NCBI GenBank assembly: GCA_003151115.1
Contig: PLWS01000001.1
Location: forward strand, 239,438-303,437
Source: Vulcanimicrobiota bacterium
Lineage (GTDB): Bacteria > Vulcanimicrobiota > Vulcanimicrobiia > Vulcanimicrobiales > Vulcanimicrobiaceae
Reading direction: 5' to 3'
Length of the DNA stretch: 64,000 nucleotides
Both the position numbers and the translations under genes were made by a program. The notes beneath the pieces were generated by a model, which was given only the letters and a program-made list of their open reading frames with translations, did not search any database and had not been told where the DNA came from. Shown in pieces: positions 26,526 to 63,024 of the stretch (position 1 is the stretch's first letter; each line of letters opens with the position of its first letter).

Positions 26526-27956
26526 ATGCGATCGATGCTCATGAGAATAGCCGCCGTGCTTGGGCTCGCGATGCTCGCGGCGGGGCCGGCCGCCGCCCAA
26601 ACCGAGGCCGTCCAGCTGCTCTCGGTGCAGTCGGGGCACTCTGTCCTGCTCCAGACGCCTGGTCTCTCGCGGGTGGCCGTGGGCGACGGGCGGATCGCCG
26701 GGGTCGTTCCAATCGGCAGCTCCCAGCTCGTCATCAACGGCAAAGCGCCCGGACATACCACGGTCTTCATCTGGGAAGCCGGCGGCCGGGCGACCTACGA
26801 GGTCACGGTCACCGAGCAAGAGGTCGACCAGATCGCGCAGATGCTGCGCACCTCGATCGACGAGCCTCACGTGCAAGTGGTGAGCTTCAACCGGTCGGTC
26901 GTAGTTCGCGGAACGGTCGTCGACGGCGCGCACTTCACGATGCTCAGCGACATCCTCAGCCGCTTCGACAAGTACGCGCAGAGCGAAAAGTATACGATCG
27001 TCAACGCCGTCACCGTGGCGCATCCGCTCGGCGACTTGCAGCGCGGCCTCTCGATGATTCCGGGCGCGGGTGAGATTCGCGTGGATCCCGACGGTAAGGG
27101 TAACGTCATCGTCAGCGGTCATGCGCACGACGCGGTGACGGTCGCCGCGATCCTCGAGCGCGCGCGCGGACTGGCCGGCCCGTATCTTTCCAGCGACGGG
27201 AAATTGATCGATCGCATCAGCACCGACACGAACAGCCAGATCGACATCAAAGTTTACGTGCTCGAAGTTGACAACACCGCCGCTAAAAATCTTGGCGTGC
27301 AGCTGCAATCGGCCGTGTTTACCAGCAACAATCCGTTTGACTATAAGACGAGCTCGACACCGAGTTTCCCGATCGTCGAGCATCCACCGTCGGACGCGGC
27401 AAACGGTGCCGGTTTGAAAGTCGGCGCGTTTCTCCGCACGATCACGTTGGCGCCGACGCTTAATCTGATGATTCAGGAAAGCCACGCCCGGCTGTTGTCG
27501 GCTCCCGATTTGGTTACCATGCCGGGAATGGCGGCGACGTTTCTGGTCGGCGGCCAGATTCCGATTCCGATCTCATCGGGGTTGGGAGTGGTCAGCATTC
27601 AATACGAGAATTTCGGCGTGCAGTTGAACGTGACGCCGATCCTGCTTGGCAACGGATCCGTGCAAACGCAGATCGCACCCGACATTTCCGATCTCGATTT
27701 TGCCGATGGCATTCAGCAGAATGGTTTCACGATCCCGGCGCTCAAGGAAAGCAAACTCTCGACCAACGTGATCACGCAGCCGGGTGAATCGATCATCATG
27801 GGCGGCTTGGTCCGGCGGGTTGAGACGCGCACGATTCTCAAGATTCCGCTGTTGGGCGACATCCCGATCCTCGGCAAGCTTTTCCGTTCGACGAATTACC
27901 AGAATAACCAAAGCGACGTTGTCTTCGTGATGACGCCGACAATCATTACGCGTTAG
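26526..27956 (+). CDS. cpaC: Tad pilus outer-membrane secretin CpaC/RcpA
   Basis: The 476-residue protein has a signal peptide (cleaved near GPAAAQ), an N-terminal pilus-assembly domain with repeated beta-alpha elements (to about residue 90), a BON-like segment around 160-220 and a C-terminal secretin domain. That domain has NTAAKNLGVQLQS, a VGGQIPIPI strand and the terminal IPLLGDIPILGKLFRS motif. It forms the outer-membrane ring for the pilus. An upstream GGAGGA is well placed. The gene diverges from the Tad inner-membrane operon across a 167-base intergenic region (26359-26525) that must hold both promoters. Confidence 0.94.
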   Translation: MRSMLMRIAAVLGLAMLAAGPAAAQTEAVQLLSVQSGHSVLLQTPGLSRVAVGDGRIAGVVPIGSSQLVINGKAPGHTTVFIWEAGGRATYEVTVTEQEVDQIAQMLRTSIDEPHVQVVSFNRSVVVRGTVVDGAHFTMLSDILSRFDKYAQSEKYTIVNAVTVAHPLGDLQRGLSMIPGAGEIRVDPDGKGNVIVSGHAHDAVTVAAILERARGLAGPYLSSDGKLIDRISTDTNSQIDIKVYVLEVDNTAAKNLGVQLQSAVFTSNNPFDYKTSSTPSFPIVEHPPSDAANGAGLKVGAFLRTITLAPTLNLMIQESHARLLSAPDLVTMPGMAATFLVGGQIPIPISSGLGVVSIQYENFGVQLNVTPILLGNGSVQTQIAPDISDLDFADGIQQNGFTIPALKESKLSTNVITQPGESIIMGGLVRRVETRTILKIPLLGDIPILGKLFRSTNYQNNQSDVVFVMTPTIITR

Positions 27957-47179: not shown

Positions 47180-48862
47180 CTAAGGTTGGATACGGCCGAT
47201 CTTAGCATTATTGAATTCCGTGAACCACATGCCCCCGTCCGAACCGGCCGCGATACCCCGCACCGAAGCGTTTATTGGAAGGCTAGAGTACTCGGTTACC
47301 GTGCCGCCGGTTGTGATCCGGCCGATCCGGTTAACGGCGGTGCCCATAGTCTGTTCGGTGAACCAAAGGGCGCCGTCAGGACCGGCCGCGATACCATCCG
47401 CAGAAGTGCTCGCAGAAATCCCGGCAGAGTATTCGGTGATTGCTCCGGCGGTTGTAATTCGGCCGATTCGACCGACGTTCGTGGGCGCGCCGGTGAATTC
47501 TGTAAACCACAGGGCACCATCCGAACCAGACGCGATAAAACCTGGGGCGGCGCCGGCAGACATCCCGGCCGAGTACAGGGTGATTGTGCCAGTCGTCGTG
47601 ATCCGGCCGATTGCGTTGGAGACTGGGATAGCACAACTTTGAGTGAACCAAAGGGCACCGTCCGGGCCGGCCGTGATATCCACCGGCCCGCCTGAACAGT
47701 AGGGCCCGACCGTATATTCCGTGATTGTACCGCTAGTTGTTATCCGGCCGATTACATTGTTATGTGATTCCGTGAACCATAGCGCACCGTCCGGACCGGC
47801 CGCGATACGAAACGGCTGAGGACGCGGTAACTGCGTCATGCCTGCCGAGTATTCGGTGACGGCGCCACTGGTTGTGATGCGGCCGATCCGGGCGAGAGTG
47901 CTGTTGTTTTCAGTAAACCAGAGGGCACCGTCCGGACCGGCTGTGATGCCTGCCGGGATAGAGCCCGCGGAAATCCCAGTCGAATAAACAGTGACTGCGC
48001 CACTGGTCGTGATCCGAGCCACCCGGTCGTTGAACGTGGTGAACCAAAGGGCGCCATCCGGGCCGGCCGCGATATCGTCCGGATTGGTCGGAACCCCGCT
48101 CGCGTACTCCGTAATCGTACCGGTGGGAAGATTGACGGTCAGAGTCGCTTGGCCCGAGGTCGCGCCTGTGGCGTTTGCGGTAATCGTCGGACTGGAGATC
48201 GCAGCCCCGTTGTAGCTCAGCGTAATTCCCGATGTCGGCGCAGTGAGCGAACTCTGCGAGAGGTGCGTTGCGCCCGAGCTGTCCGAATCCGCAAGGTTGA
48301 CCGTAAGCGCGCTGCCGCTGGCATCGACGTAAACGCCGGGCGCGATGATCGTGTTGCCGTCCGCATCGAGCGCATTAACCGTGACGTTGACGGTGGTCGA
48401 CGTTCCGGAGGTGACGGTGCTCGGACTTACCACAACCGAGGTCGAGGTGACGACGCCGTTAAAGGTCACGCTGACGCTGTTGGCTTGATCGATCGCGATC
48501 GTTTGGGTCAGCGTTCCGGTCGAGAGCAAATTCCCGCCCGCGTTTTGCGCGTCGTAGAGTTTGACGGCGAACGTGTCGCTGCCGATCGGCGCTAAAACTT
48601 GCGCGCTGCAGCTGCTCGTACAGTTGACGACCGTCGGCGTACCGGCGCTTCCCCCGCTCGGCGTGACGGCGATCGACGCAGATTTCGTCGACGCCGAAAT
48701 GTATTTCGGGCTTATTCCACTCGAGCTGGGAACAACGATGTGGAACTCGACCGTTGCCATCCGCACTTGTCCGGACGTAGGCACTGCGCTACCACCGGAG
48801 CTACCGCAACCGGGCGCGAGAATCAGCAAACCGATGACAAAACTGCGGAGGAATATTTTCAT
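47180..48862 (-). CDS. Virginiamycin-B-lyase-like beta-propeller lipoprotein with N-terminal Ig-like domains
   Basis: The 560-residue protein has a signal peptide with Cys near residue 19 (LAPGCGSSGG), two Ig-like/adhesion-type beta domains (about 35-265), then seven repeats of about 42 residues with the core AAGPDGALWFTE...IGRITTSG-ITEYS. The repeats match Vgb (streptogramin lyase)-type propellers. In true Vgb lyases catalytic His/Glu residues lie in the blades; these are not evident, so a carbohydrate- or ligand-binding propeller is more likely. The ATG at 48860-48862 overlaps the upstream lipoprotein stop by one base (TGATG). Confidence 0.82.
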   Translation of the reverse strand: MKIFLRSFVIGLLILAPGCGSSGGSAVPTSGQVRMATVEFHIVVPSSSGISPKYISASTKSASIAVTPSGGSAGTPTVVNCTSSCSAQVLAPIGSDTFAVKLYDAQNAGGNLLSTGTLTQTIAIDQANSVSVTFNGVVTSTSVVVSPSTVTSGTSTTVNVTVNALDADGNTIIAPGVYVDASGSALTVNLADSDSSGATHLSQSSLTAPTSGITLSYNGAAISSPTITANATGATSGQATLTVNLPTGTITEYASGVPTNPDDIAAGPDGALWFTTFNDRVARITTSGAVTVYSTGISAGSIPAGITAGPDGALWFTENNSTLARIGRITTSGAVTEYSAGMTQLPRPQPFRIAAGPDGALWFTESHNNVIGRITTSGTITEYTVGPYCSGGPVDITAGPDGALWFTQSCAIPVSNAIGRITTTGTITLYSAGMSAGAAPGFIASGSDGALWFTEFTGAPTNVGRIGRITTAGAITEYSAGISASTSADGIAAGPDGALWFTEQTMGTAVNRIGRITTGGTVTEYSSLPINASVRGIAAGSDGGMWFTEFNNAKIGRIQP

Positions 48863-49392
48863 CACTGACCCCCTACCGTAGTGGTGGTGACATCGACGGT
48901 GAGCGTCGCGGTCTGCCCATTCCCTCCCGTGATTGTAAACGTACAATGTCCGGCCGCTACTGGCGTAATCGTGAACGACGCGCCGGTCGCCGGGGATGCC
49001 GTCACGATACCGCTGCATGAGTTCGTTTGCCCGGCCGCCGCAGTCGAAATGGTGAACGCTCCGCTGTAATTGCTCTGGGACGGGGTGACGGTCTGCGCGT
49101 TTGACGCGCCGGTTCCGAGGAACGAAATGCTCGACGAGGGCAGAGTGACGGATCCCGGCGTCGGGGTGGGCGTCGGGGTGGGCGTCGGTGTGGGCGTCGG
49201 TGTGGGCGTTGGCGTCGGTGTGGGCGTTGGCGTCGGTGTGGGCGTTGGCGTGGGCGTCGGCGTGGGCGTTGGTGTCGGCGACGCAGTGGGCGGAACAGCC
49301 GTCGCGTTCCCGCCCGAGCCGCTGCACTGGACCAACGTCACAGAAAAAGCCGCAAAAGCTACTAGGCTAAACAGCGAGCGCCCGAATTTCAT
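48862..49392 (-). CDS. Lipoprotein with a long Pro-Thr linker
   Basis: This 176-residue secreted lipoprotein has Cys near residue 23 ([10 protein letters not shown]), a 41-residue Pro-Thr dipeptide tract (39-79) and a C-terminal Ig-like domain of about 90 residues with two cysteines. The PT tract is a stiff, probably O-glycosylated spacer holding the Ig-like domain away from the membrane. It is coupled to the propeller gene downstream. Confidence 0.78.
49156..49278. repeat. Hexanucleotide minisatellite encoding (Pro-Thr)n
   Basis: The plus strand reads as variants of GTGGGC and GTCGGT/GTTGGC repeated about twenty times. On the minus strand this encodes alternating Pro and Thr. Such tracts change length by slippage in multiples of six bases without a frameshift, so linker length may vary between strains. 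Confidence 0.9.
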
Positions 49393-49545
49393 CAGCCCCC
49401 ACTCTCAGAAAGGCACGTTTAGCGACTGCGTACTCACAACCTTTTCGCTTTACCAACGTCGGCGATGTTAGCAGTCGCCGCTTCGGTTAAGTCTTTTAGG
49501 CGGTACTAGACAATTGTTGCGAGTCGGCGCCTAATGGGACGGTAG

Positions 49546-49645
49546 GGACTGGCCGGGACCCCTGTGTTCGGGTTCGAATCCCGTTGGGGCTACCAATAAG
49601 AGCTCGATTTCATCGAGCTCTTTCCTTATATATACCAAGTGATTG
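49546..49645. repeat. tRNA 3'-end fragment copy 2 with its terminator
   Basis: GGACTGGCCGGGACCCCTGT, then a T-arm-like TTCGGGTTCGAATCCCG, the acceptor 3' strand and CCA (TTGGGGCTACCA, ending at 49595), followed by the hairpin at 49600-49620. A matching 5' tRNA half is not found upstream, so this is a fragment rather than a gene. Together with copies 1 and 3 it divides the region into two cassettes, as expected for integration at the 3' end of a tRNA gene. Confidence 0.82.
49600..49623 (+). terminator. Terminator hairpin downstream of the tRNA fragment
   Basis: GAGCTCGAT, loop TTC and ATCGAGCTC form a perfect 9-bp stem followed by TTTCCTT. It follows the CCA end directly, as a tRNA gene terminator would. 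The equivalent in copy 3 (about 52058-52080) has two changes in the stem. Confidence 0.8.
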
Positions 49646-49699
49646 GCTCGCCATCTTACAGAATGACACATCGGCGAATCGGTCCCGGTTTTGCTGGCC

Positions 49700-51529
49700 T
49701 TACGGTGTAATCTTCCCGATCACGTTGGCTCTGGTTTCGGCAAACCAGAGGTTGCCGTCGGGGCCTGCGGCGATGCCTAGCACGAATGCCGGATTACCCG
49801 GAGGAACCCTCGGAACCCCATACGCGGTGGACAAACCGCTCGTGGTGATTCTCGTGATCGTGCCCGCCGAGTCGTCCGTAAACCAGAGGTTGCCGTCCGG
49901 CCCTGCGGCGATGCCGAACCCCACGTACACAAAAACCGGATACTGGGTAAACGAGCCGCTCGTGGTGATCTTCCCGATCCCGGAGCTACCGCTTCCGATA
50001 AACCAGAGGTTGCCGTCCGGACCTGCGGCGATGCCTTGCGGATACGAGTTGCTAATGGGAATCGCATATTCGGTGATCGAGCCGCTGGTAGTGATCTTTC
50101 CGATCTTATTGCCGTTGTTTTCGGTAAACCAGAGGTTGCCGTCCGGGCCTGCTGCGATGCCCCGCGGCGCCGCGCTCGCAGTCGGAATCACATACTCGGT
50201 AAACGCACCGCTCGTGGTGATCTCCCCGATCTTGTTGCCACCGCCTTCGGTAAACCACAGGTTGCCGTCCGGACCTGCGGCGATGCCTTGCGGGCTCGCG
50301 CTGGCCGTCGGAATCGTATACGCGGTGATCGAGCCGCTGGTAGTGATCTTTCCGATCTTGCTGCCGTCGGTAAACCACAGGTTGCCGTCCGGACCTGCGG
50401 CGATGCCGCCCGGGACGCCACCCGTCGGAATCACATATTCGGTGAACGTGCCGCCCGTGGTGATCTTCCCGATCTTGTTGGCGCTCTCTTCGGTAAACCA
50501 GAGGTTGCCGTCCGGGCCTGCGGCGATGCCGCGCGGCCCCGCGCTGGCCGTCGGAATCGGATACTCTACGATCGTTCCACTCGTAGGCTTGACCGGCGAG
50601 GAGTAAATACCGCCTGAGCTTCCGATGACATAGAGATGTGTGCTGTCGGTCGAGATGCTGACTCCGGCGCCGCTCTGAACGCTCCAACCGGGTGTGCTCA
50701 GATCGTAATAGTAGATATTATTGCCGTTGCTGTTCGCAGGATAGCCCAGAACGAAGACCCCGCCGATGGTCGTCGGCGCGATTGCTGACGCGCTCCCGGG
50801 GAGCTGCACGAAACTGTTATCCGGATTCTTGTAATAGATGCTGCCGATGGAATTGAGAACATACAAACCATTCGCCGAAACGGTTCCATTGGAAAGCGTA
50901 TAGCTATTCGGATCCCATGACGCAGCGATCCGCACGCCGGCACCCGGCACTTGCGACCAAGTTCCGCTCACGTTGTGCCAGATCGCTTGATCGCTGCCGG
51001 CCGAATTGCCGTTGGAGAGCACATAGATCGAGCCGTCTGAAGCAGCGGTGATGTCGCTGCATCCGCCGCCCAGCCCGGTCCATGTTCCGCCGCTATACGA
51101 GTAAGCTCCGCCGCCGGAGTTGATCGCGTAGAGCGTGCCGTCGGGCGCAACCGAAAGCCGCGTGGCCATTCCGGAGATATTGGTCCACGTTCCGCCGACA
51201 TAATGCCAGATATACTTATCGGAACCGGCAGGCGCGGTAGAGAGCACCCAGAGCGAACCGTCGGGAGCCGCGGCGGCATAACTAGCTGCGCCAGGAATCT
51301 GCGTCCAACTCGCGCCTTGAATTGCACTTTGCGGTTTTACGGCCATGACGCTGGCCGGAAGAATTGCGGTGTGCGCCATCGGCGCAGGTGCGATCGAGCC
51401 AGGTGAAACCGACTGCGGCGTACCGAGCATGATGCCGCCGGTCTGCGGGGTCATATGCCTCGCACCCGAGCATCCCGCCAGGACGACGGTAAACGCAAGT
51501 GCGGAGAATAAAAAAGAACGAAAGCTCAT
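49700..51529 (-). CDS. Two-propeller lipoprotein (tectonin-like plus Vgb-like repeats)
   Basis: The 609-residue protein has a signal peptide with lipobox VVLAGC (near residue 20). A first set of repeats (about 65-300) reads WTQIPGAASYAAAAPDGSLWVLS and TWTNISGMATRLSVAPDGTLYAI, like tectonin (TECPR) blades. A second propeller (about 310-609) has seven repeats with AAGPDGNLWFTE...IGKITTSG. It is the only gene of the second cassette (49.6-52.0 kb), transcribed toward the copy 2 repeat. The protein is probably a surface-exposed sugar- or peptide-binding protein. Confidence 0.8.
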   Translation of the reverse strand: MSFRSFLFSALAFTVVLAGCSGARHMTPQTGGIMLGTPQSVSPGSIAPAPMAHTAILPASVMAVKPQSAIQGASWTQIPGAASYAAAAPDGSLWVLSTAPAGSDKYIWHYVGGTWTNISGMATRLSVAPDGTLYAINSGGGAYSYSGGTWTGLGGGCSDITAASDGSIYVLSNGNSAGSDQAIWHNVSGTWSQVPGAGVRIAASWDPNSYTLSNGTVSANGLYVLNSIGSIYYKNPDNSFVQLPGSASAIAPTTIGGVFVLGYPANSNGNNIYYYDLSTPGWSVQSGAGVSISTDSTHLYVIGSSGGIYSSPVKPTSGTIVEYPIPTASAGPRGIAAGPDGNLWFTEESANKIGKITTGGTFTEYVIPTGGVPGGIAAGPDGNLWFTDGSKIGKITTSGSITAYTIPTASASPQGIAAGPDGNLWFTEGGGNKIGEITTSGAFTEYVIPTASAAPRGIAAGPDGNLWFTENNGNKIGKITTSGSITEYAIPISNSYPQGIAAGPDGNLWFIGSGSSGIGKITTSGSFTQYPVFVYVGFGIAAGPDGNLWFTDDSAGTITRITTSGLSTAYGVPRVPPGNPAFVLGIAAGPDGNLWFAETRANVIGKITP

Positions 51530-52279
51530 AACCGCTCCAAAGCAGCGCGCGAGCCAGTCGAACGCTTCAGTTGGCCCTTCCGGCGCCGAAGATGCGTGAA
51601 TCTCATGAATGAATGCCTCCGTTGTCGATCTCACGCTATGACCGCATCGAGAAGAAGTTGAGAACATCCGTGCGCGAGCCGCGTTGGGACACGGGCTCAC
51701 CCAGTCGAGGGTCGGCTGGAGCCTGCTTTCCAGGCGGACGCATTCGTGCTGGGATACTACACAAGGGCGCGCAAACGTCCGGTGCGCATGCCGACTGGGA
51801 CAGCCACCCTGATGAACCTAGTGAAGCCGACATCGCGGAAGCAATGCAGAATCCATCGACTGAAAACGATAGCTCCAGATTGCGCCGGTTGAACGCGAGC
51901 TGACGGGCTTTCTACTTCCCCTTCTACTTACAGGCTATAACGTATGGTAATCCATGGTAATCGTAAGGATTGATTATGCGGTCTTCAGGAAGCCCAATCC
52001 ATATGAATGCCTATCAATAAGCCAACGCATTCGAATCCCGTTGGGGCTACCAATAACAGCTCGATTGCATCGAACTCTTTCCTTATAAATACACGAAGTG
52101 ATTGAGCCGTCACCTTAAGATTGACACGTCCGCGACGGTCGCCGTGAGATTACTGCTCACATAATAGGGCATTTTGAAAAGGGGCGAGACCGCGGCGTTT
52201 CAAGGCGCGAGGGCCGCGTCTTAAACGATATAGGGATCGCACGCGCTGCCTTACTTCAGGCTGAGGTAGGTCATTTGGT
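51530..52279. other. 750 bases without a confident gene; carries tRNA-fragment copy 3
   Basis: A plus-strand frame at 51613-51903 lacks a ribosome binding site and recognisable features and is not accepted as a gene. The stretch includes copy 3 of the tRNA 3' fragment. Between 51910 and 52020 the DNA is AT-rich with a short repeated TATGGTAATC (51944 and 51953). The rest shows nothing recognisable. Confidence 0.5.
52030..52099. repeat. tRNA 3'-end fragment copy 3 with terminator-like hairpin
   Basis: It shares TTCGAATCCCGTTGGGGCTA plus CCAATAA with copy 2. It then has an AGCTCGATTGCATCGAACTC hairpin-like piece with two changes and TTTCCTTATA, and continues similar through the ACACGAAGTGATTG stretch. 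Unlike copy 2 it lacks the GGACTGGCCGGGACCCCTG lead. It is the right edge of the second cassette. Confidence 0.8.
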
Positions 52280-53596: not shown

Positions 53597-54142
53597 CTAC
53601 TTGCGTACGCGTTTTAAATAAGACTCGGCCTCGGTCACCTTCGCCAGCGCTCTGGCGCGAATGGTTTCAATTTTAGGAACCGGATCATGAGCTGATAGGT
53701 TCCCCCGGGCTAAGGAAAGATAGGAGCCGGCAGCTCGGACGGTTCGGTCCGTGGATGCGAGGCACGGTTTGATATTCTTGGCCGCGTTAGCGGTCGTCTC
53801 CCCGATCAAAGGGACTAACGACTGCATAGCAGAGGCAATGTCGTGCGCGCCGCGCCGTAAGTTATCATCTTCGTGCAGGCGCGAGCGGTTGAGGTCGACG
53901 ATGTATGACGCGTAGCGAAGGTTAAAAAGCGCTCGCAAATAGAACCATTTATGCGATAGAGCGTCGTTAGCGCCCTGGAGGGTCGCATTCAGCGCAATGC
54001 CCTGACGGAACATTACGGCGAGGCATGGAGGTGCAGGAGACGTTCGGACCTTTACGGCTTGTGAATCAGCAGCCATCGCACCACAGCCAGCGCTCGGTAC
54101 AAGGCCACAAGTAAGGATCGCGCTTAGGGCGAGAAATCGCAT
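53597..54142 (-). CDS. Small lipoprotein linked to the RHS gene (candidate immunity or partner protein)
   Basis: The 181-residue protein has a lipobox (VPSAGC, Cys near residue 20) and a mostly alpha-helical mature domain with two further cysteines (PCLAVMF and KPCLAS). The ATG at 54140-54142 has a very good AAGGAGG six bases upstream and lies 31 nt after the RHS stop, so it is in the same transcript. RHS toxins are normally followed by an immunity gene; a periplasmic lipoprotein would suit a toxin acting in the cell envelope. The family is not recognised, so the role is inference. Confidence 0.68.
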   Translation of the reverse strand: MRFLALSAILTCGLVPSAGCGAMAADSQAVKVRTSPAPPCLAVMFRQGIALNATLQGANDALSHKWFYLRALFNLRYASYIVDLNRSRLHEDDNLRRGAHDIASAMQSLVPLIGETTANAAKNIKPCLASTDRTVRAAGSYLSLARGNLSAHDPVPKIETIRARALAKVTEAESYLKRVRK

Positions 54143-54173: not shown

Positions 54174-57100
54174 TCACCATGGTGTGTTGTTACGGGTCGG
54201 ACCGACAACGACTACCGAGGTGTAGTTTGTCACGCCTGGATCGTTCGCTTCGCCGAATTGCGCGAGCGTTTGCAGGTACGATTCCCCGAGGCCTCCTTGG
54301 TTTCCGGCGGGCGTTATGTAGTACGAGTTGTAGGCACCGGTGTCATCAATCCAAAATACTTTTGTTGCCCCCTGATCGGGTCCGGGCGTTGTATTGTAAT
54401 CGGCTCCTCCCCAGAAGTTCTTTAATCCATTGACGGTCTTGTACCAGAATCGTTCTTCGAATGTGCCGGCTCCCCAGGCGCCGTCTCCCTTCGGCTCCCA
54501 GCTGGATATATACAATCCGGGAGCGATGTCCGCGTTAGCAAGCTCGCTAGCCCCTTCCGCTAGTATGCCGACAGGACCCTCGCGTGACGAGGCAACCAAT
54601 TTCGCAAGGTCACCAAGGACGACTCCGATCTCTGCTCCGCTTGGTGCGTAGAAATAAATTTTTATGTTCACGAGGGGCTGACCAAACATGAGGCTTTGGT
54701 TGTCGTAGAAGTACCCAGGGATCCAAGGTTCCGTAGGCTTGCCCCCTGGGGCTTGCGTTGGAGGACTCCCACCATAGCAAAAGCTGGCGGTTGGGTGGCA
54801 AGCGCCGCCGGCCTGCGGTATTTGATACGGTCGCGAAGTTCCAGGCGAGTGTGGATTCCCGTCATTGGTCTGCGGTGATGTTGCAGCACTTTGGAGGCTG
54901 TCAAAATCTCCGCCGTTTTGCAGCTCATTTACGCCATCAGAGAATCGATCTAGCGCAGCGGTTCCCAGTACCTTGCCTTGTCCAACTCCGCTCGCGAGAT
55001 TGGAGGCCCCGGTAGTGGTGACCGATGCCGGGATCTGCATCGTCTGCCCACTGGCTTTGATGCAGCCAAATGCGCTGGTAGAATTCTGGTCAGTGCCCGC
55101 AGCGCCCGATGAGTTGTGGCAGAACGAAATCATTCCTAGTAATGAATCCCAAAATGTTAGCCCCGAAAATGCGGTATCCAAGGGAGTGATATCCGCGGTT
55201 CCCCCGTCGGGCAAATTGATTTTGATATCGTCTACCGCGCCCTGCGCGTTCGTCGTAAACAAAAGCTTATCGCCGTCCCAATGCAATGTATCATAGCTTA
55301 ACTGCGAGGTCGTCGCATTTGCATCGTAGACGGAAGGTGTAGAACCGATTTGGATCGCGTGTCCGTTGGGGCCCCAATGATATGACGTTAGCGTACTATT
55401 GAAGTTAGCGCTTATGCGCGAGTTCGGATCGTTCTGAGCGCCACTGATGATGCGGTTCTCGCCATCATATTGACGCGTGTCGGTTATGTCATACCCATTA
55501 CCAAAATGATCGACTGCGCTTTGATCCGAGCCGGTTTGCCGACCCGCGTTGTCGTATGAGAAAGCTGTGCCTGTGCTGTTGCCGTTTTGGTCGGTATACG
55601 GGTTTCCGTTATTAGTCAGAACGGCGTTTCGGCCATCCCAGTGGTCCGTATTATTGCTGCCTGTCCCGATTAGTGCCAGGCCATTAGCAAAGTAGGCCTG
55701 GCTGTGCGTATTGCGCGGATCGTATTCTATCTCATTTCTGGTCGTGTATACAAAGGTTCCACTGGAGCCGCTTGCGACGTTATAAACGTTACGATTATAC
55801 GAAAGAACGTTGCCCTCCGCATCGTAGCTAAATGAGCTGAGTGCAGCAGCGGGTAGAGTCTCGGCGGTAAGAACGCCCGTATTGGATCCGTTATTAATGT
55901 CATAGGCATATGTTGATCCGGCGCCGTTCGCGGCCGGGCCGGTCTCGGATCGCGCGAGCAATCGACCCGCGTTGGAATATGAGTAATTGATCGCGGAACT
56001 CCCGACGGCGGCATCAGCGTTTAAGTTGATCTGAATCTGTTGCGTGACGCCGTCATCGCGGTATGAATATCCGAAAAGTGTTGTTTGACTCAGCCCCGGC
56101 GAGGACACGTCAAGGGATGAGTTGGTGTTGTCCGCATAATAATGATAGCTAAGAGTGGCCGGGGACGTGACTCCGCCGCCGGATGGCTCCTGATCTTGGG
56201 TGAGTCGTTCTTCAGCATCGTAGGTGTAGTTTTCGGTCCCAAAGGCACTTGACGTGGCCGACCGTGTATTCCCATCGGCGTCGTACGTATAAGATTCTGA
56301 TGGCGTACTATCGTTATAGCTAATGCTAGTCGTGTGGCCGGCGGCGTCATATTGTGGCGTGCCGCATTGATTTGCGCCGTTGCAGTGCTGCGAGACTTCA
56401 GCGAAATTACCGTTCCCGTCGTAACTGATTGACTCGCCATATGGAGCATCGTTAAGCATGCGGTAACGTGTGACAACGCGGTCAGCAGCGTCGTATCCCG
56501 CTCCGCCCGTATCTTGAAACTGCGTGTTGTTCAAAGAAGGCTGTCCGGTCGCCCAGGAGAGGTTCTGATTAGATCCTGGAACCAAGAGCTCTTGACGTTT
56601 AAAAGAATTTCCATAGGCTCTAAACGACACGCTGGCCGAGCCAGTGATCGACACCGTCCCCCCTTGCGTCAGATCGTAAAACGTTCTCGTGATCCAAGGG
56701 TTTTGAAAGACATCATGGGTGTCTTGAGGGAGCTCGACCTCGACTAATCGGTCGACGGCATCATACCATTGCATCGTTCTACCCGCCTGATTGCCGGAGT
56801 GATGTGTTTCCGTTACGAGGTTTCCGTCCGCATCGTAGGTGGAGACCGTCGCATAAGCCGGCGCAGTCGATTGGCAACCACTGGGTGAACCGTCGAGTTG
56901 GTGCTGCAATGCGCTCTCGGTATAAAATACCTGCCCGTTATTGTAGTAGCACGTGTAGACAGTGACGCCGTCGGCATCAGTCTTTCGAGTCAAGCGATTC
57001 AACGAGTCGAAGACGGCAGATACGTGTCCGTGCTGGCTCCCGTTAGAATAAGTTACGGCATTGCCGAACTGATCATAGGTCGCTGCGTCTTGAGGAGTAC

Positions 57101-59234
57101 GCTGCGAGCCGTCGACTTGTCCGATCGTGTCACCGAACGAACCGGTGAGAAGGCCGTAGTCCCCTCCCTGGGAGTTGGCATCATGCGAGAGCGACCGATG
57201 GTAGCCAATTGCCGAATGGGTATCAGTGGATCGCCCAAATGGCTCAGCGCCGTCTGTGTAGTTCCAAACTGCCCATTCGGCGCCAGTCCCAGTCGGACAA
57301 AGCGAATCATTTGCGGCAGGTGTACTTGTCCAATCTTTTCCAAGCTGGTGCGTGTAGCTTGCCTGACAAACACTCGAAAGGTTATTGTAATTCACGCCGC
57401 TCGATAGGTCATATGAATAGAGCGTCGTCGGCCGAAACGTACCTGCATTAGTAGTCACCGCTGGCAGAGCGGACGCTATTAGGTTTCCGTTCAGGTCATA
57501 GGCGTAGTCCGTCGCGTTGCCGCGAGCATCGACCGTTTCAGTGAGATTATTGGTGGCGTCCCACGAACTTGATGTGACGAGCCACAGGTTTTCGCTCGCA
57601 CCTGTCCACCGTTGCATCTGCGTAACCCGCCCGACTGCGTCGTAGAACCAATTGGTGGCGTGCCCGTCAACGTCGGTCATACTCGTTTCGCCAGTAGTCG
57701 GATAGCTGAACGTCCTATAGATCACCGTGCTCCCGCCCGTTGTGTAGCCGGGCTGAATCGGCGTGTTTAGATCGTCGCTGGGCGTTGGGTTGGCGTATCC
57801 GTAGAGCAACACTCCGTCGATGCGGTTGTTGGCATCGTAATAAAAGTTTGTAAACGAGCCATCGGCGCCTCCCGAAAGGTTCCAGCGAGGGTTGGAAGTC
57901 CACGCCAGCTGATCGCCGGCGTTGTAGCCGTAGTCTTCTGTTAGGATGCTCGCGGCGCTGTTACCGATTTTACCAACCGATACCAAATCGTGGGCACCAC
58001 TGTAAGAATAGGTGACCTGCGCGCCGTCGGGCCGTGTGACGCCCGAGAGCAGCACCCTCCCGTTGACCGTGCCGAAAGCCAAAGTTAGTGCTTGGCCATC
58101 GGTATGTTGCACCACGATCTGGGTCAGATTTGCCGTAGTGGAAGAATCACCGCCCGACCAGTAGTAGTTGAGTTGAATGTAATTGTTTTGGTTACGGCCA
58201 AATATCCGGTAGAGCCGACCGGCATATCCAGCAATCGAGCTCGCATCGTAGGGGCTGTAGAAATAATAGACGACTCCGTTTTTTTGCGTCCAAAAGTAAC
58301 CGCCGCCGCTGCCATCGCCGCAGAGCGTATTATACATCCCCGGTGGGGGCGTATAGCATCCTGTCCCGTTTGGAGCATAGTCGTAGCGCGTCCCGTCGAC
58401 GTCGAATACGGTGATTCCCCCGGCGCTATTAAGTGCTAGGTGGGCACCATACGTCGTCGTCCATCCGTTGCCAAAGATATTGGGCGCGGGCGAGCCATCG
58501 TCGTTACCATAGCTGCCATTGGTGTCATTAGCGCTCATCGAGTTGTAGGTGCGCTGAAACTCCAGGTCAATTCCACGTTCAGTGACGACGAGATCGGACG
58601 CTTGGACAACGACGTTTCCGGTGCCAACGTTGACCATGTACTTACCGGTTCCCGGAAGCGCGCCTTCCTCGTATCTCCACCAGGTATTGGTGCCGGTGGC
58701 GTTCGTGCTGCCCGTAGTGACGTCGAACGTCGCGCGCGGAATCGACGGACGATGCGCTGGCGCAGGCAAGGCGGGGACGCGCACCACCGGATTGCGATCG
58801 ACGATCGGCGCCTGCACTGGTAACGCAGCGCGAAGACGCGATGCAGGAGCGGCAGTCGCAGTGCGCTGTGGCGCCGTCAATTTTTCGGCGTCTTTTGGCA
58901 AGAGTGGCCTAGCGCGCATCGTTGGGCCGGCAATGCGCTGACCGGAGCCATTGGACTGCGGCCGTATTATGCCGGTCAGACGAGTTTTGGTGGCGTCGAC
59001 ATGTGGTGCGGTGACACGAACAGGGCGCGGGGCGTGCATTGCGGCGTAACGATCAGGAGTTAGGATCATCGCAAATAGCGGGGATCCAACCAGCCAATTT
59101 GTCGCACCTCCCAGGTCGAGTCGTCCTTGCGCAAGCGTTGCACTAACATTCGCCCCCTCTGGGCCGGCGGCGGCCGCGCCGGTCGATTGGAGGCAGAGTG
59201 ACATTAGGAGCGTTGCGCAAATGAAGCGACGCAT
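54174..59234 (-). CDS. RHS/YD-repeat protein
   Basis: The 1686-residue protein has a signal peptide (ATLLMSLCLQSTGAAAAG) and a DUF6531-like opening of the RHS shell (about 170-290: VNVGTGNVVVQASDLVVTERGIDLEFQRTYNS). At least fourteen YD repeats follow (such as YDAVGRVTQMQ, YDLNGNLIAS, YDADGNTRSAT) up to about residue 1360. The canonical DPxGL hallmark that ends the RHS core is not found; SLLGMISFCHN stands near that point. The C-terminal approximately 300 residues match no toxin that I recognise. ATG 59232-59234 has GGGAGAG upstream; the frame is open to 59300 but that part lacks a ribosome binding site. It is less GC-rich than the chromosome around it. Confidence 0.85.
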   Translation of the reverse strand: MRRFICATLLMSLCLQSTGAAAAGPEGANVSATLAQGRLDLGGATNWLVGSPLFAMILTPDRYAAMHAPRPVRVTAPHVDATKTRLTGIIRPQSNGSGQRIAGPTMRARPLLPKDAEKLTAPQRTATAAPASRLRAALPVQAPIVDRNPVVRVPALPAPAHRPSIPRATFDVTTGSTNATGTNTWWRYEEGALPGTGKYMVNVGTGNVVVQASDLVVTERGIDLEFQRTYNSMSANDTNGSYGNDDGSPAPNIFGNGWTTTYGAHLALNSAGGITVFDVDGTRYDYAPNGTGCYTPPPGMYNTLCGDGSGGGYFWTQKNGVVYYFYSPYDASSIAGYAGRLYRIFGRNQNNYIQLNYYWSGGDSSTTANLTQIVVQHTDGQALTLAFGTVNGRVLLSGVTRPDGAQVTYSYSGAHDLVSVGKIGNSAASILTEDYGYNAGDQLAWTSNPRWNLSGGADGSFTNFYYDANNRIDGVLLYGYANPTPSDDLNTPIQPGYTTGGSTVIYRTFSYPTTGETSMTDVDGHATNWFYDAVGRVTQMQRWTGASENLWLVTSSSWDATNNLTETVDARGNATDYAYDLNGNLIASALPAVTTNAGTFRPTTLYSYDLSSGVNYNNLSSVCQASYTHQLGKDWTSTPAANDSLCPTGTGAEWAVWNYTDGAEPFGRSTDTHSAIGYHRSLSHDANSQGGDYGLLTGSFGDTIGQVDGSQRTPQDAATYDQFGNAVTYSNGSQHGHVSAVFDSLNRLTRKTDADGVTVYTCYYNNGQVFYTESALQHQLDGSPSGCQSTAPAYATVSTYDADGNLVTETHHSGNQAGRTMQWYDAVDRLVEVELPQDTHDVFQNPWITRTFYDLTQGGTVSITGSASVSFRAYGNSFKRQELLVPGSNQNLSWATGQPSLNNTQFQDTGGAGYDAADRVVTRYRMLNDAPYGESISYDGNGNFAEVSQHCNGANQCGTPQYDAAGHTTSISYNDSTPSESYTYDADGNTRSATSSAFGTENYTYDAEERLTQDQEPSGGGVTSPATLSYHYYADNTNSSLDVSSPGLSQTTLFGYSYRDDGVTQQIQINLNADAAVGSSAINYSYSNAGRLLARSETGPAANGAGSTYAYDINNGSNTGVLTAETLPAAALSSFSYDAEGNVLSYNRNVYNVASGSSGTFVYTTRNEIEYDPRNTHSQAYFANGLALIGTGSNNTDHWDGRNAVLTNNGNPYTDQNGNSTGTAFSYDNAGRQTGSDQSAVDHFGNGYDITDTRQYDGENRIISGAQNDPNSRISANFNSTLTSYHWGPNGHAIQIGSTPSVYDANATTSQLSYDTLHWDGDKLLFTTNAQGAVDDIKINLPDGGTADITPLDTAFSGLTFWDSLLGMISFCHNSSGAAGTDQNSTSAFGCIKASGQTMQIPASVTTTGASNLASGVGQGKVLGTAALDRFSDGVNELQNGGDFDSLQSAATSPQTNDGNPHSPGTSRPYQIPQAGGACHPTASFCYGGSPPTQAPGGKPTEPWIPGYFYDNQSLMFGQPLVNIKIYFYAPSGAEIGVVLGDLAKLVASSREGPVGILAEGASELANADIAPGLYISSWEPKGDGAWGAGTFEERFWYKTVNGLKNFWGGADYNTTPGPDQGATKVFWIDDTGAYNSYYITPAGNQGGLGESYLQTLAQFGEANDPGVTNYTSVVVVGPTRNNTPW

Positions 59235-59284
59235 AAGATACTCTCCCGCGAAGTAGCGACTTACGTGAAGTAAGCCAGTGCAAA

Positions 59285-59319
59285 CATAACAGAAAAGCAC
59301 CGCTCACCCGCAGCGGTGC
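59285..59319 (-). terminator. Hairpin plus U-tract in the RHS leader (possible attenuator)
   Basis: On the minus strand GCACCGCT, a 7-base loop and AGCGGTGC form an 8-bp stem followed directly by TTTTCTGTT. It stands between the promoter at 59448-59476 and the RHS start, not after any gene. It could therefore stop most RHS transcripts early unless relieved. Confidence 0.6.
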
Positions 59320-59447
59320 GTCGCTGCTAGGTTCCGCTTCTAATGCGCGAGATGTGTCGTTCGCAACGGAACGTATTCACCCGAACACCCTCCACCCCTC
59401 AAATTTGCAAAGATGCGAAGCGCGTCATTGCTTGCTTGAGTGATATG

Positions 59448-59476
59448 ATAATACGACTGCAAAAACGCGCAGTCAA
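59448..59476 (-). promoter_or_regulatory. Strong sigma70-like promoter for the RHS gene
   Basis: Read on the minus strand, TTGACT (59471-59476) and TATTAT (59448-59453) are separated by exactly 17 bases, five of six matches to consensus in each box. The start point would be near 59441, leaving a leader of about 205 bases before the RHS ATG that contains the hairpin at 59285-59319. Confidence 0.72.
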
Positions 59477-59529
59477 TATACTAGTACGAAAAAACTTGTG
59501 GATAACATAACTTTTGCGATTACAAACGC

Positions 59530-59558
59530 TTGATCATGCGAACGCAGTGGAGTAAAGT
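59530..59558 (+). promoter_or_regulatory. Candidate promoter for the orphan secretin
   Basis: TTGATC (59530-59535), a 17-base spacer and TAAAGT (59553-59558) lie 24 bases upstream of the secretin ATG, which is preceded by GGGTGA. The RHS promoter lies in the same 348-base divergent region (59235-59582), so the two may be co-regulated. Confidence 0.5.
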
Positions 59559-59582
59559 TGGCGTACACGATCGGGTGATCTC

Positions 59583-62045
59583 ATGAAAAGCCGCTTCTTA
59601 TTTTCTCTTTTGTGCGCAGTTGCGCTTGTGCTCGCGCTGTGCGGCGGCCTTTCGGCTGCGCAACATCGCGTGCCGCGTATACCGCCGACACCCATCGTGC
59701 TAACCTTTACGACGGTGCGCGCTCAGGACGCGGTGCGCGTGCTGCGCCGGCTCTACCCGCAACTGTCCTTCACGATCGACGGTGCGGCAAATGCCGTCGT
59801 TGTGCTCGCTGGATCGGATGATGCGGCGGCACTCCGGCAGATCGGCGCGGCAATCGACACGAAAAACCCGCTGACGCCGGTCACCGCCTCGCTGATCCTC
59901 CACCGCCTTGATGCGAATCAGATCGCCGCTCGCCTACATGGGCTCTATCCAAGCGCGAAGTTGGCTATCATTAATAGGCACACGTTGCTCGTGAGCGCGG
60001 TCAACAGCGATCTGCAACAGATGCAATCGCTCGTTGCGGCCATCGACCAGCCTCCTCAGACGCCAACGCCCCGGCCAGCGCCCAGCGCACCGGATACCGA
60101 AGCCGTGCCGGTCCTGCAAGCCAGTCCGCGGACGATCGCGCGTGAAGTGGCCGGCGCCGTGCACGGTCTACGCGTTGGCGTTGCGGGCCACACGATCGTG
60201 TTGGCGGGGGCACCCGATTTGGTGGCGCGAGCCAAAGATGTGATTTCGGTACTCGACACGCCTTCCGTCGGTGCGCGTTACACGGCAGTCTACCGCTTGC
60301 GCACGCTCGACGCGCAGTCCGTGGGCGACCTTATCTCGCGCTCCTATCCCAACGCTAAAGTGACGGTCGATGCGCAGATCAATTCGCTGAGCGTTTCGGC
60401 AACGCCGGCGGAGCAGCGGAGAATTGCCGAAGGCATTGCGCAGCTCGACGCATTGCCAAGTCCAGGCCCAGGCGCGGCCGGTGGTGGGGGCGGCGGCAGC
60501 GCCGAGATCTATACATTGAAAGCTGCACTGCCTGCGACCAACGGTAGCAGCTCGTCGACCGCCAACGACTTAGCGACCATGGTGACGCAGTCGTTGCAGT
60601 CCCAGGCGCCGGACCTGCACATTACCGTCTCGCCGGATTCACCCAAGCTGATCCTGACAGGCAATCCCTACTCCATCAAACTCGCTAAAGATTTGCTCGG
60701 CAAGCTGGATGTTTCCGAGAAGCTCGTTGTGCTCGACACCGAGATCCTCGAGGTCGATGAAAACACCGCCAAAAATCTGGGTATTTCGCTCTCGTCGATC
60801 TTCGGCGGGGATTTCAGCATCGGAACGCTCATTGGCGAGTCGACGCCGCCGCCCGATCCGCTCACGGGCATTTCACCGCCGCTCATGCGCCCGCAGAAGC
60901 TGTTCCGGACGCCGATCTCATTCGGAGTCCAGTTGAACCTCGCGATCCAGCACGGATCGGCTCGCGTGCTGGCCGACCCGCGCATCACCACGCTCTCCGG
61001 ACATACGGCATCGATTCGAGCGGGCGACAACCTTTCGATCCAATTGCAAGCGGGCGGAGGAGCCGGCACGATCGCGACGACGCAAATCCAAACGTTTCAA
61101 ACCGGCGTAACGCTCGATATCACGCCGATCGTCAACGACGACGGCTTGATTACGGTGGCGTTGCATCCTGTGGTCAACAGTCTAACCGGTATTCTCAACG
61201 GGATTCCGCAGATCTCGACGCGTGACACGCAGACCACGGTCGCATTGCGTGAAAATCAGACCTTAGTAATCGGTGGGCTTATACAGGACAATACGCAAAG
61301 AACCGAATCAAAAATTCCGGTGCTGGGCGACATTCCGTTGGTCGGACGTCTCTTCCGCAACGAAACGCTCAATGGCGTCAGCAACGAGCTCATCATTACG
61401 GTGACGCCGCACGTGGTGATTCCAGGCGCACCCGATGGCGTCTACCCGGTTCCGTTACAATCGGTGCCCACACCGAATCCGCTGCCGACGCTGGCGCCGG
61501 GAACTGTCCTTCCGACGCAAACGTTCAGTCAGCGCTTGCCAATCCCGATCATGCGGCCGCTGCCCGCAGCGCCTCCGCCGTTCCGGCCGCTGTCGCGACG
61601 CATGCCGACACAGATCGGCGGGCTACGCACGCCAACGCCTTCTCCGATGCCCTCGGCCTTTGCGCAAACGAATGTCTACACGTTTGGTTCGCCGCCTCCC
61701 AATAATTTTGCGGGTCCCGGCGATGGCGTGCAGATTTTCTACGCGTCGCTCTCCCCGACGATCGTCTCATATGGAACGCCTATTACGGTGACGGCGATCA
61801 CGACCAGCAATGTGAACGCGCTCACGCTGAGCTACAACGGTGTGCAAACCTCCATCGCGCAGAGCGGTGCTGGGCAGTGGTCGGCGACGATTCCCTTCAC
61901 TTTGGTTGGGCTCCCGGAACCCAATGCCACGATTCAACTTTCGTTGACTGCGAGTAAGAGCGACGGTACGTCATCGGTCATTCCGATCCCGGTGAGCGTC
62001 GTCGCGCGAACGTCGACGGCTACCAGTTCGCAAAGGCGGAGATGA
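59583..62045 (+). CDS. Orphan type II/IV-type secretin with Pro-rich and Ig-like C-terminal extension
   Basis: The 820-residue protein has a signal peptide (to GGLSAAQ) and several N-domain repeats (about 35-290; PIVLTFTTVRAQDAVRVLRRLYP, ILHRLDANQIAARLHGLYP, VYRLRTLDAQSVGDLISRSYP). A Gly-rich hinge comes near 300, then a secretin domain (about 330-615) with ENTAKNLGISLSS, VLADPRITTLSGH and IPVLGDIPLVGRLFRNE. A 200-residue Pro-rich tail ends in an Ig-like domain. No other secretion-system gene is near. It diverges from the RHS gene. Confidence 0.88.
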   Translation: MKSRFLFSLLCAVALVLALCGGLSAAQHRVPRIPPTPIVLTFTTVRAQDAVRVLRRLYPQLSFTIDGAANAVVVLAGSDDAAALRQIGAAIDTKNPLTPVTASLILHRLDANQIAARLHGLYPSAKLAIINRHTLLVSAVNSDLQQMQSLVAAIDQPPQTPTPRPAPSAPDTEAVPVLQASPRTIAREVAGAVHGLRVGVAGHTIVLAGAPDLVARAKDVISVLDTPSVGARYTAVYRLRTLDAQSVGDLISRSYPNAKVTVDAQINSLSVSATPAEQRRIAEGIAQLDALPSPGPGAAGGGGGGSAEIYTLKAALPATNGSSSSTANDLATMVTQSLQSQAPDLHITVSPDSPKLILTGNPYSIKLAKDLLGKLDVSEKLVVLDTEILEVDENTAKNLGISLSSIFGGDFSIGTLIGESTPPPDPLTGISPPLMRPQKLFRTPISFGVQLNLAIQHGSARVLADPRITTLSGHTASIRAGDNLSIQLQAGGGAGTIATTQIQTFQTGVTLDITPIVNDDGLITVALHPVVNSLTGILNGIPQISTRDTQTTVALRENQTLVIGGLIQDNTQRTESKIPVLGDIPLVGRLFRNETLNGVSNELIITVTPHVVIPGAPDGVYPVPLQSVPTPNPLPTLAPGTVLPTQTFSQRLPIPIMRPLPAAPPPFRPLSRRMPTQIGGLRTPTPSPMPSAFAQTNVYTFGSPPPNNFAGPGDGVQIFYASLSPTIVSYGTPITVTAITTSNVNALTLSYNGVQTSIAQSGAGQWSATIPFTLVGLPEPNATIQLSLTASKSDGTSSVIPIPVSVVARTSTATSSQRRR

Positions 62046-62103: not shown

Positions 62104-62985
62104 CTAAAAATGCGGAGGTAGACCTAGTCCAAGTTGGTGCGTTCGGCGATCGGCCGGAGTTTCAAATCGCGGTACGATCTGATCGGATATTGATCCCAGC
62201 GATGCCGCGTCAAACTCGGTCGCAGAACCATACCATGACCGAATTCGCGGGTCAGGCCAAGGAACGTCTCGGAAATTGAAAACATGTCCAGTCGGCACCG
62301 TTACCGCTTCGCCCGAATAGTTTTCGTCAGGAAATAAGGCAAGAAAACCTTTACGTACCAGAATGGAGCCTACGACTGGTGTTGGCCAGTCCGGACCATT
62401 GGGGTTTACGTCGGCGGTAGGATCAGCGACATACCCGTCCGCATTGATCTCCGGATCGTCGCGCAACCCATACTGATCGGTTTCGCTGTAGATTGAGAAA
62501 TCAAGCGAAAGTCCCGGCCACGGAGAAGTGAGTGGCACGATTGCAGCATGTATCCCGCCGAAAAATCCGCTGGGCCGGGCACCGCCTGGAAGTCCCGTCA
62601 CTCCGAAAGCTTGTAGAACGTCTACAACATCTGTTCGGCAATTCTGGGACAGCAGGTTGTAGTCCATTCCCCGTATACGGTCGATCTGCGACCGAGCAGC
62701 GACCACGTTCGGAGTATCGACCGATAAGATCTTGGCCATGTCGTATCGCGTCTTCACCTTATAAGGCGTATCGCTCGACATGAACGTGAGCGGATCTATT
62801 TTTTCGTCTGTCCAAAAGTCCATTGCGTTGTTGACATGCGAGGTATTGCCCATTACCACCTCAACCCCACCAACAAGCACTGTACCTTGGTCATCAATTT
62901 GGAAGCCGAAAGCGACGTGGCCATACGGGGAACCCAAGATTATCGCGCCACCCGGGCGTGCGAATACGTATGCGGCGTATCCCAT
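62104..62985 (-). CDS. Papain-like (permuted NlpC/LRAT-type) protein with C-terminal beta/gamma-crystallin-like domain
   Basis: The 293-residue protein has GSPYGHVAFGFQI (H23) and, about 93 residues later, YNLLSQNCRTDVVDVL (N115-C116). The H-then-NC order is that of circularly permuted papain-like enzymes (LRAT/YiiX/DUF4105-type). Toward the C-terminus GFLALFPDENYSGEAVTVPTGHVFNF resembles a beta/gamma-crystallin Greek-key unit. There is no signal peptide. The ATG at 62983-62985 follows GAGGGGAAAC. The frame is open up to 63024, but that point lies over the promoter -10. It may be an effector, amidase or acyltransferase; all are inferences. Confidence 0.6.
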   Translation of the reverse strand: MGYAAYVFARPGGAIILGSPYGHVAFGFQIDDQGTVLVGGVEVVMGNTSHVNNAMDFWTDEKIDPLTFMSSDTPYKVKTRYDMAKILSVDTPNVVAARSQIDRIRGMDYNLLSQNCRTDVVDVLQAFGVTGLPGGARPSGFFGGIHAAIVPLTSPWPGLSLDFSIYSETDQYGLRDDPEINADGYVADPTADVNPNGPDWPTPVVGSILVRKGFLALFPDENYSGEAVTVPTGHVFNFRDVPWPDPRIRSWYGSATEFDAASLGSISDQIVPRFETPADRRTHQLGLGLPPHF

Positions 62986-63024
62986 GTTTCCCCTCGCCTC
63001 CGATGAGAGCGGTATCTTTGTCAA

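Follow-up and report, generated by a model that had tools for sequence, protein, structure and literature searches.

The closest described systems each share part of their design with the locus discussed here. The T6SS Rhs effectors, such as RhsA of Pseudomonas protegens (PMC8765631), combine a YD shell with a C-terminal toxin and an immunity gene behind it, an arrangement that our locus resembles, and the predicted fold matches. The core motif reads PxxxxDPxGL in RhsA (PMC8765631) and DPSG in most of the relatives considered here. Unlike the T6SS effectors, the RHS protein has an N-terminal signal peptide, no PAAR domain was found, VipA is missing from 20 carriers, and the neighbor is a secretin gene. 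The Sec-dependent RHS toxins surveyed by Zhang et al. 2012 (PMC3482391) are similar in their signal peptide, RHS repeats, polymorphic C-termini, HNH toxins and downstream immunity genes. Table 1 of that survey gives '-' as the signature neighbor gene for the Sec route, and the word secretin is absent from the accessible part of its text, whereas a secretin family is the recurrent neighbor here. Bacterial teneurin-like proteins (PMC13018210) are also exported YD shells with polymorphic toxic C-termini, and one of their structures, 9ifo, was returned as a fold match of our protein. The 2026 paper that describes them states that machinery for their delivery is not obvious; in contrast, a candidate delivery gene adjoins the RHS gene at our locus.

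The secretin itself is most similar to GspD and the type IV pilus protein PilQ, which share its secretin core and N-domains and provide the best sequence and fold matches. However, its scores are far below the cut-offs, N0 is missing in this lineage, a proline-rich linker and an Ig-like tail are added, and the genome has no GspE/PilB-type ATPase besides the Tad one. The logic that we propose, a large Sec-exported toxin with one adjacent dedicated outer-membrane partner, is that of two-partner secretion (TpsA/TpsB, CdiA/CdiB), but the partner is a secretin instead of an FhaC/CdiB-type barrel, and the cargo is an RHS shell in which no TPS domain was found. A literature search (orphan secretin, secretin with RHS or polymorphic toxin, Eremiobacterota) returned no report of such a pairing. 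The parts are of known kinds, and the combination of RHS protein and secretin appears to be new.

Layout of the locus

The locus lies in a window of 64,000 nucleotides, the whole stretch of DNA that was analyzed, from a 2.56-Mb genome that is 98.5% complete. The organism belongs to Candidatus Eremiobacterota, a soil phylum about which little is known, and the named relatives of the lineage are Candidatus Eremiobacterota / WPS-2. In a single scan of genome contigs, relatives with more than 40% identity were from Eremiobacterota only, with three records carrying other labels. The features, in window coordinates, are:

53597..54142, minus strand: 181-aa exported-looking protein behind the RHS gene (31-bp gap), candidate immunity protein
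54174..59234, minus strand: RHS/YD-repeat polymorphic toxin, 1686 aa, start ATG at 59234 (ORF and Pfam)
54177..54857, minus strand: variable tail of the RHS protein and candidate toxin domain, about aa 1460-1686 (from loss of similarity)
58377..58637, minus strand: DUF6531 domain of the RHS protein, aa 200-286 (Pfam)
59235..59582, no strand: divergent intergenic region between RHS gene and secretin, 348 bp
59297..59319, minus strand: leader hairpin GCACCGC...GCGGTGC, then a T-run, 63 nt upstream of the RHS ATG
59448..59476, minus strand: sigma-70-like promoter toward the RHS gene, TTGACT-17-TATTAT (scan score 10/12)
59583..62045, plus strand: dedicated (orphan) secretin, 820 aa (PF00263, 4e-42; Secretin_N, PF03958)
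59688..60707, plus strand: five KH-like N-domains of the secretin, aa 36-375 (AlphaFold2 model)
60723..61418, plus strand: beta-barrel region of the secretin, aa 381-612 (Pfam, model and fold match)
61677..62000, plus strand: Ig-like C-terminal domain of the secretin, aa 699-806 (model)

Both large genes named in the preliminary description are real. The RHS frame contains DUF6531 (PF20148, 3e-13) and RHS_repeat (PF05593, 2e-14), and opens with a signal-peptide-like stretch followed by a short conserved region; the secretin frame has the two Pfam matches listed above. Their divergent transcription is borne out as well, with a spacer of exactly 348 bp that is kept in five module copies of the genus. 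The same description placed a good promoter on each strand of this spacer, which is correct for one side only. Toward the RHS gene there is a decent sigma-70-like site, with both hexamers mostly retained in the aligned module copies, and a second minus-strand site scores 9/12; toward the secretin, the promoter scan detected no plus-strand site in the spacer. In view of this, and of a site count over the whole scanned region that is not in excess of shuffled sequence (9 versus 7.3 +/- 2.9 expected), the promoter pair was rejected. An exported-looking frame does lie 31 bp behind the RHS gene, as had been described, but its assignment as a lipoprotein is doubtful, because SAGC, the sole motif with a cysteine, resembles a lipobox poorly, and a signal peptidase I site, AMA-AD, fits equally well.

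The RHS leader of about 240 nt (59235-59475, minus strand), with its hairpin and T-run, is conserved in the five genus copies, all of which retain the outer stem. The hairpin has no match among Rfam families. Within the genus, the conserved leader is found upstream of RHS genes only, and it looks like an attenuator or another regulatory leader. It is absent from two genus copies that have short regulators, AraC-like HTH proteins as judged by eye, between secretin and RHS gene (L034 6182-6649 and L037 10720-11355).

Other genes in the vicinity deserve mention. A 306-aa ORF (62104-63024, minus strand), convergent to the secretin, has no Pfam or NCBIfam match; its NCRTDVVDVLQAFG motif recalls, by eye, NlpC/LRAT-type enzymes, and it is possibly an orphan toxin. 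Two large propeller proteins of the Vgb-lyase/NHL type (PF24684) are encoded near the module (47180-51700, minus strand), and a related gene is located directly behind the RHS gene of another locus (L041, 16965-18089). A search for anti-phage defence families found none.

The secretin and its linkage to RHS genes

The model of the secretin has a GspD-like fold, and GspD is also nearest in sequence. The match to GspD, the nearest NCBIfam model, reaches 169 bits against a cut-off of 351, and the match to curated PilQ 129 bits against 284, so that the protein stays below the GspD equivalog level. In type II systems, the N0 domain couples the secretin to the inner-membrane platform. Pfam detects no N0/STN domain in the window secretin, and it is missing in the genus, while some relatives (L041, L046) have an N-terminal STN/N0 domain in their secretins. 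The Ig-like tail, which had been proposed earlier, is predicted with good confidence: in the AlphaFold2 model it comes after a long disordered proline-rich linker, residues 699-806 have pLDDT values mostly of 84-93, and the domain is conserved in orthologues.

In relatives from the genus, the gene behind the secretin encodes a lytic transglycosylase (PF01464) lipoprotein. Lytic transglycosylases are usual accessories of envelope-spanning machines. Eight other loci have a different, conserved small lipoprotein-like gene directly behind the secretin (L012 107-847, with relatives in L040, L041 and L129-L133). It is cupredoxin-like by eye, has no match in Pfam, and is a candidate pilotin or accessory. 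Both kinds of gene fit an envelope-spanning exporter.

For the question of linkage, the secretin family was sought by profile in 149 genomes of the phylum, and the RHS proteins by their conserved part. There were 51 copies of the secretin in 32 genomes and 56 RHS matches in 31 genomes. Within 3 kb of an RHS gene were 27 of the 51 secretins, and as many RHS genes lay equally close to a secretin. By our estimate, genomes of 2-5 Mb that hold a few RHS genes each would yield about one such pair by chance. The linked pairs are divergent in 21 cases and on the same strand, secretin first, in 6; the existence of two gene orders implies that this is not one frozen arrangement. At the level of genomes, 21 have both genes, 11 the secretin only, 10 the RHS gene only, and 107 neither (Fisher p = 1.2e-10, a statistic that ignores relatedness). 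As a control, the other secretins of 60 relatives were located: none of 124 was within 5 kb of an RHS gene, compared to 11 of 17 family copies (p = 1.7e-12). These further secretins score lower.

In the secretin tree, linked copies are distributed over several supported clades, and they come from two families of the class. Since the pairing covers most of the tree, with four changes of state needed, it looks old, and a few losses are the simple reading of the remainder; one sub-clade has largely lost the linkage, and for one copy counted as linked (that of G035) the RHS gene is no more than a truncated start where the contig ends. Distances between secretins correlate with those between RHS proteins (Mantel r 0.39, 0/10000 permutations). 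In G120, three secretins are about 80-90% alike and their RHS partners 26-52% alike, which is what one would expect if the channel is generic and its cargo changes fast. The test of co-occurrence suggested with the preliminary description thus strongly supports its idea of a module. The pairing, far above chance, suggests that the toxin leaves through a channel of its own.

Alternatively, the secretin could serve the Tad pilus, a type IV pilus or other cargo, and be found close to RHS genes because shared competition islands carry both. About half of each family is indeed unlinked: 24 of the 51 secretins have no detected RHS gene nearby, and 29 of the 56 RHS matches, some of them on short contigs, have no adjoining family secretin. 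One sub-clade of secretins adjoins housekeeping genes, among them a SecA-like gene according to its sequence, and several carriers encode full-length T2SSE ATPases of other kinds. Ten genomes, including the well-assembled G024 (96% complete), have RHS genes and no family secretin, and therefore RHS proteins can exist without it or use another secretin. In the genome of the window, however, the only T2SSE ATPase is the Tad one, which has a secretin of its own; the lower-scoring secretins of relatives are never near RHS genes, and the adjacency recurs in two gene orders and in separate clades. We thus regard service to another machine as unlikely, although it is the alternative that survives best.

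The secretin had been described as having no secretion-system neighbors, which holds locally, Pfam detecting no pilus families among the scanned neighbors, but not for the window as a whole, where the single T2SSE ATPase of the genome (at about 22.2-23.0 kb) lies near a Tad-type, CpaC-like secretin (26526-27956), a separate gene 31 kb from the module. No GspE-type ATPase is partnered with the module secretin, and no rival system that needs it was found, the lone ATPase adjoining the other secretin. A type II or pilus role in this genome was rejected for lack of a free ATPase. Three further carriers of the pair (G086, G112, G114) have one T2SSE match each. At two loci (L056 9536-14971 and L063 9455-15053), unlinked secretins of the family adjoin a large gene that reads as SecA, a further hint of a tie to Sec export.

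RHS proteins and the genes behind them

The RHS genes are polymorphic toxins and follow the pattern that Zhang et al. 2012 (PMC3482391) describe: the shell is constant, the C-termini vary, and the small gene behind differs for each. Among the relatives, the N-terminal and shell parts are retained. In most of them, a motif survey found a WNxNNPxxYxDPSG-type core followed by 143-217 variable residues. The tails include HNH nucleases, with a DUF4265 gene behind each, as well as weak NlpC/CHAP-like and M91-like matches, and the genes behind the RHS genes change from copy to copy and are unrelated.

The window protein follows this pattern in part. Residues 487-1686 have a predicted fold like that of T6SS Rhs shells, of teneurins and of the Tc BC component (Foldseek E down to 5e-28 for the Rhs shells, with a model of medium confidence that is poor over the last 300 residues), so that PF05593, PF20148 and Foldseek all point to YD/RHS repeats that form a shell. 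Resemblance to other RHS proteins drops off past about aa 1440. The tail has no match in the 148 other genomes, belongs to no Pfam family and has no recognized toxin fold. Just ahead of it, the WNxNNPxxYxDPSG core is degenerate, and because the DPxG autoprotease motif present in most relatives is lacking, we classify the protein as an atypical RHS toxin. This motif is common among RHS toxins but does not occur in all of them. By analogy with RhsA (PMC8765631), its tail may stay uncut from the shell, or this copy may be decaying.

The 181-aa downstream protein has no Pfam family, and its gene is private to this genome save for one weak partial match. It occupies the position of the variable downstream genes at other RHS loci. 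Since RHS genes are polymorphic toxins with differing genes behind them, the protein is probably the immunity protein of the RHS toxin; tail and downstream gene are both private, and every other RHS gene has a different gene in this place, which is immunity-like behavior. Its earlier interpretation as an export factor is not supported, the pattern being that of a cognate immunity gene.

It is also conceivable that the window protein has become non-toxic with the loss of the core motif, and persists because it acts in adhesion at the surface or in signalling, with the secretin presenting it. The degenerate DPSG core and the absence of a recognized toxin domain would be in line with this idea. 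However, the reading frame is intact over 1686 codons, the canonical motif is missing in some other RHS genes too, and a private tail together with a private downstream gene is the usual mark of a toxin-immunity cassette. A non-toxic role therefore seems rather improbable.

Proposed export of the RHS protein

The RHS protein, which carries a signal peptide, is left without a known exporter, because the T6SS is absent and the single T2SSE ATPase is tied to the CpaC-like secretin. Delivery by a T6SS was rejected on the basis of VipA (PF05591), which is missing in 20 of 20 carriers and was detected in the E. coli control. At the same time, the recurrent neighbor of the RHS protein is an outer-membrane channel without a known client. 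We consider it fairly likely that the locus is a polymorphic-toxin locus, with an RHS shell and a variable toxin domain, an immunity gene behind and a dedicated divergent secretin, and that the toxin is exported via the secretin. The sequence data establish the gene content, the conserved linkage, the polymorphism of the toxins, and the absence of a T6SS and of a spare T2SS/T4P ATPase. The linkage by itself is no proof of transport, and passage of the RHS protein through the secretin, for presentation or release, is inferred.

As judged from its signal peptide, the RHS protein would be exported to the periplasm by Sec. The secretin ring would then take it up via the five periplasmic N-domains and pass it through the outer membrane, with neither a type II pseudopilus nor a GspE ATPase involved. 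As in two-partner secretion, the YD shell might fold once outside and in this way drive the passage. A folded RHS shell has roughly the width of a secretin channel, and passage in folded form is therefore uncertain. More speculatively, the Ig-like tail may retain the product on the cell surface or present it there. Finally, in keeping with the pattern in relatives, the C-terminal domain would poison a neighboring cell, and the downstream protein would protect the producer and its kin.

A different role for the same pair is that of target and entry gate: RHS toxins of the same or sibling strains would bind the secretin on the recipient and enter, and co-evolution of receptor and toxin would keep the genes together. 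The linkage and the distance correlation fit this equally well, and the Ig-like domain may be exposed. However, it leaves unexplained how the RHS protein exits a cell without a T6SS, and secretins that are about 80-90% alike next to RHS proteins that are 26-52% alike are easier to reconcile with a generic carrier than with a matched receptor, so that we deem an entry gate improbable. Release by lysis, a holin-type (T10SS-like) route or vesicles, with an incidental secretin, is most unlikely, despite the precedent of an RHS-shell relative, the Yersinia entomophaga Tc toxin, which the accessible part of PMC10847048 describes as released by T10SS-dependent lysis of specialized cells, since it would not account for the secretin association and would make a Sec-type signal peptide unnecessary.

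Export through the secretin has points against it as well, namely the missing DPSG core of the window protein, which might be a decaying copy, the unlinked halves of both families, and the fact that no energy source, motor or inner-membrane partner for the secretin was identified. The more specific claim, that in Eremiobacterota a stand-alone secretin brings a Sec-delivered RHS toxin to the surface with no pseudopilus, inner-membrane platform or ATPase dedicated to it, is made tentatively. We are similarly reserved as to whether such a route might constitute a minimal, previously undescribed form of two-partner secretion, and hence a new type of secretion system.

Many RHS/YD-shell toxins carry ordinary signal peptides, and a conserved private secretin is a concrete candidate for their outer-membrane route. 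If true, this would provide a candidate answer to the question of how Sec-dependent YD-shell toxins exit diderm cells. If confirmed, it would also mean that a secretin can be a stand-alone exporter, which would broaden the view of what secretins need, and an uncultured phylum would gain a toxin-export system of its own.
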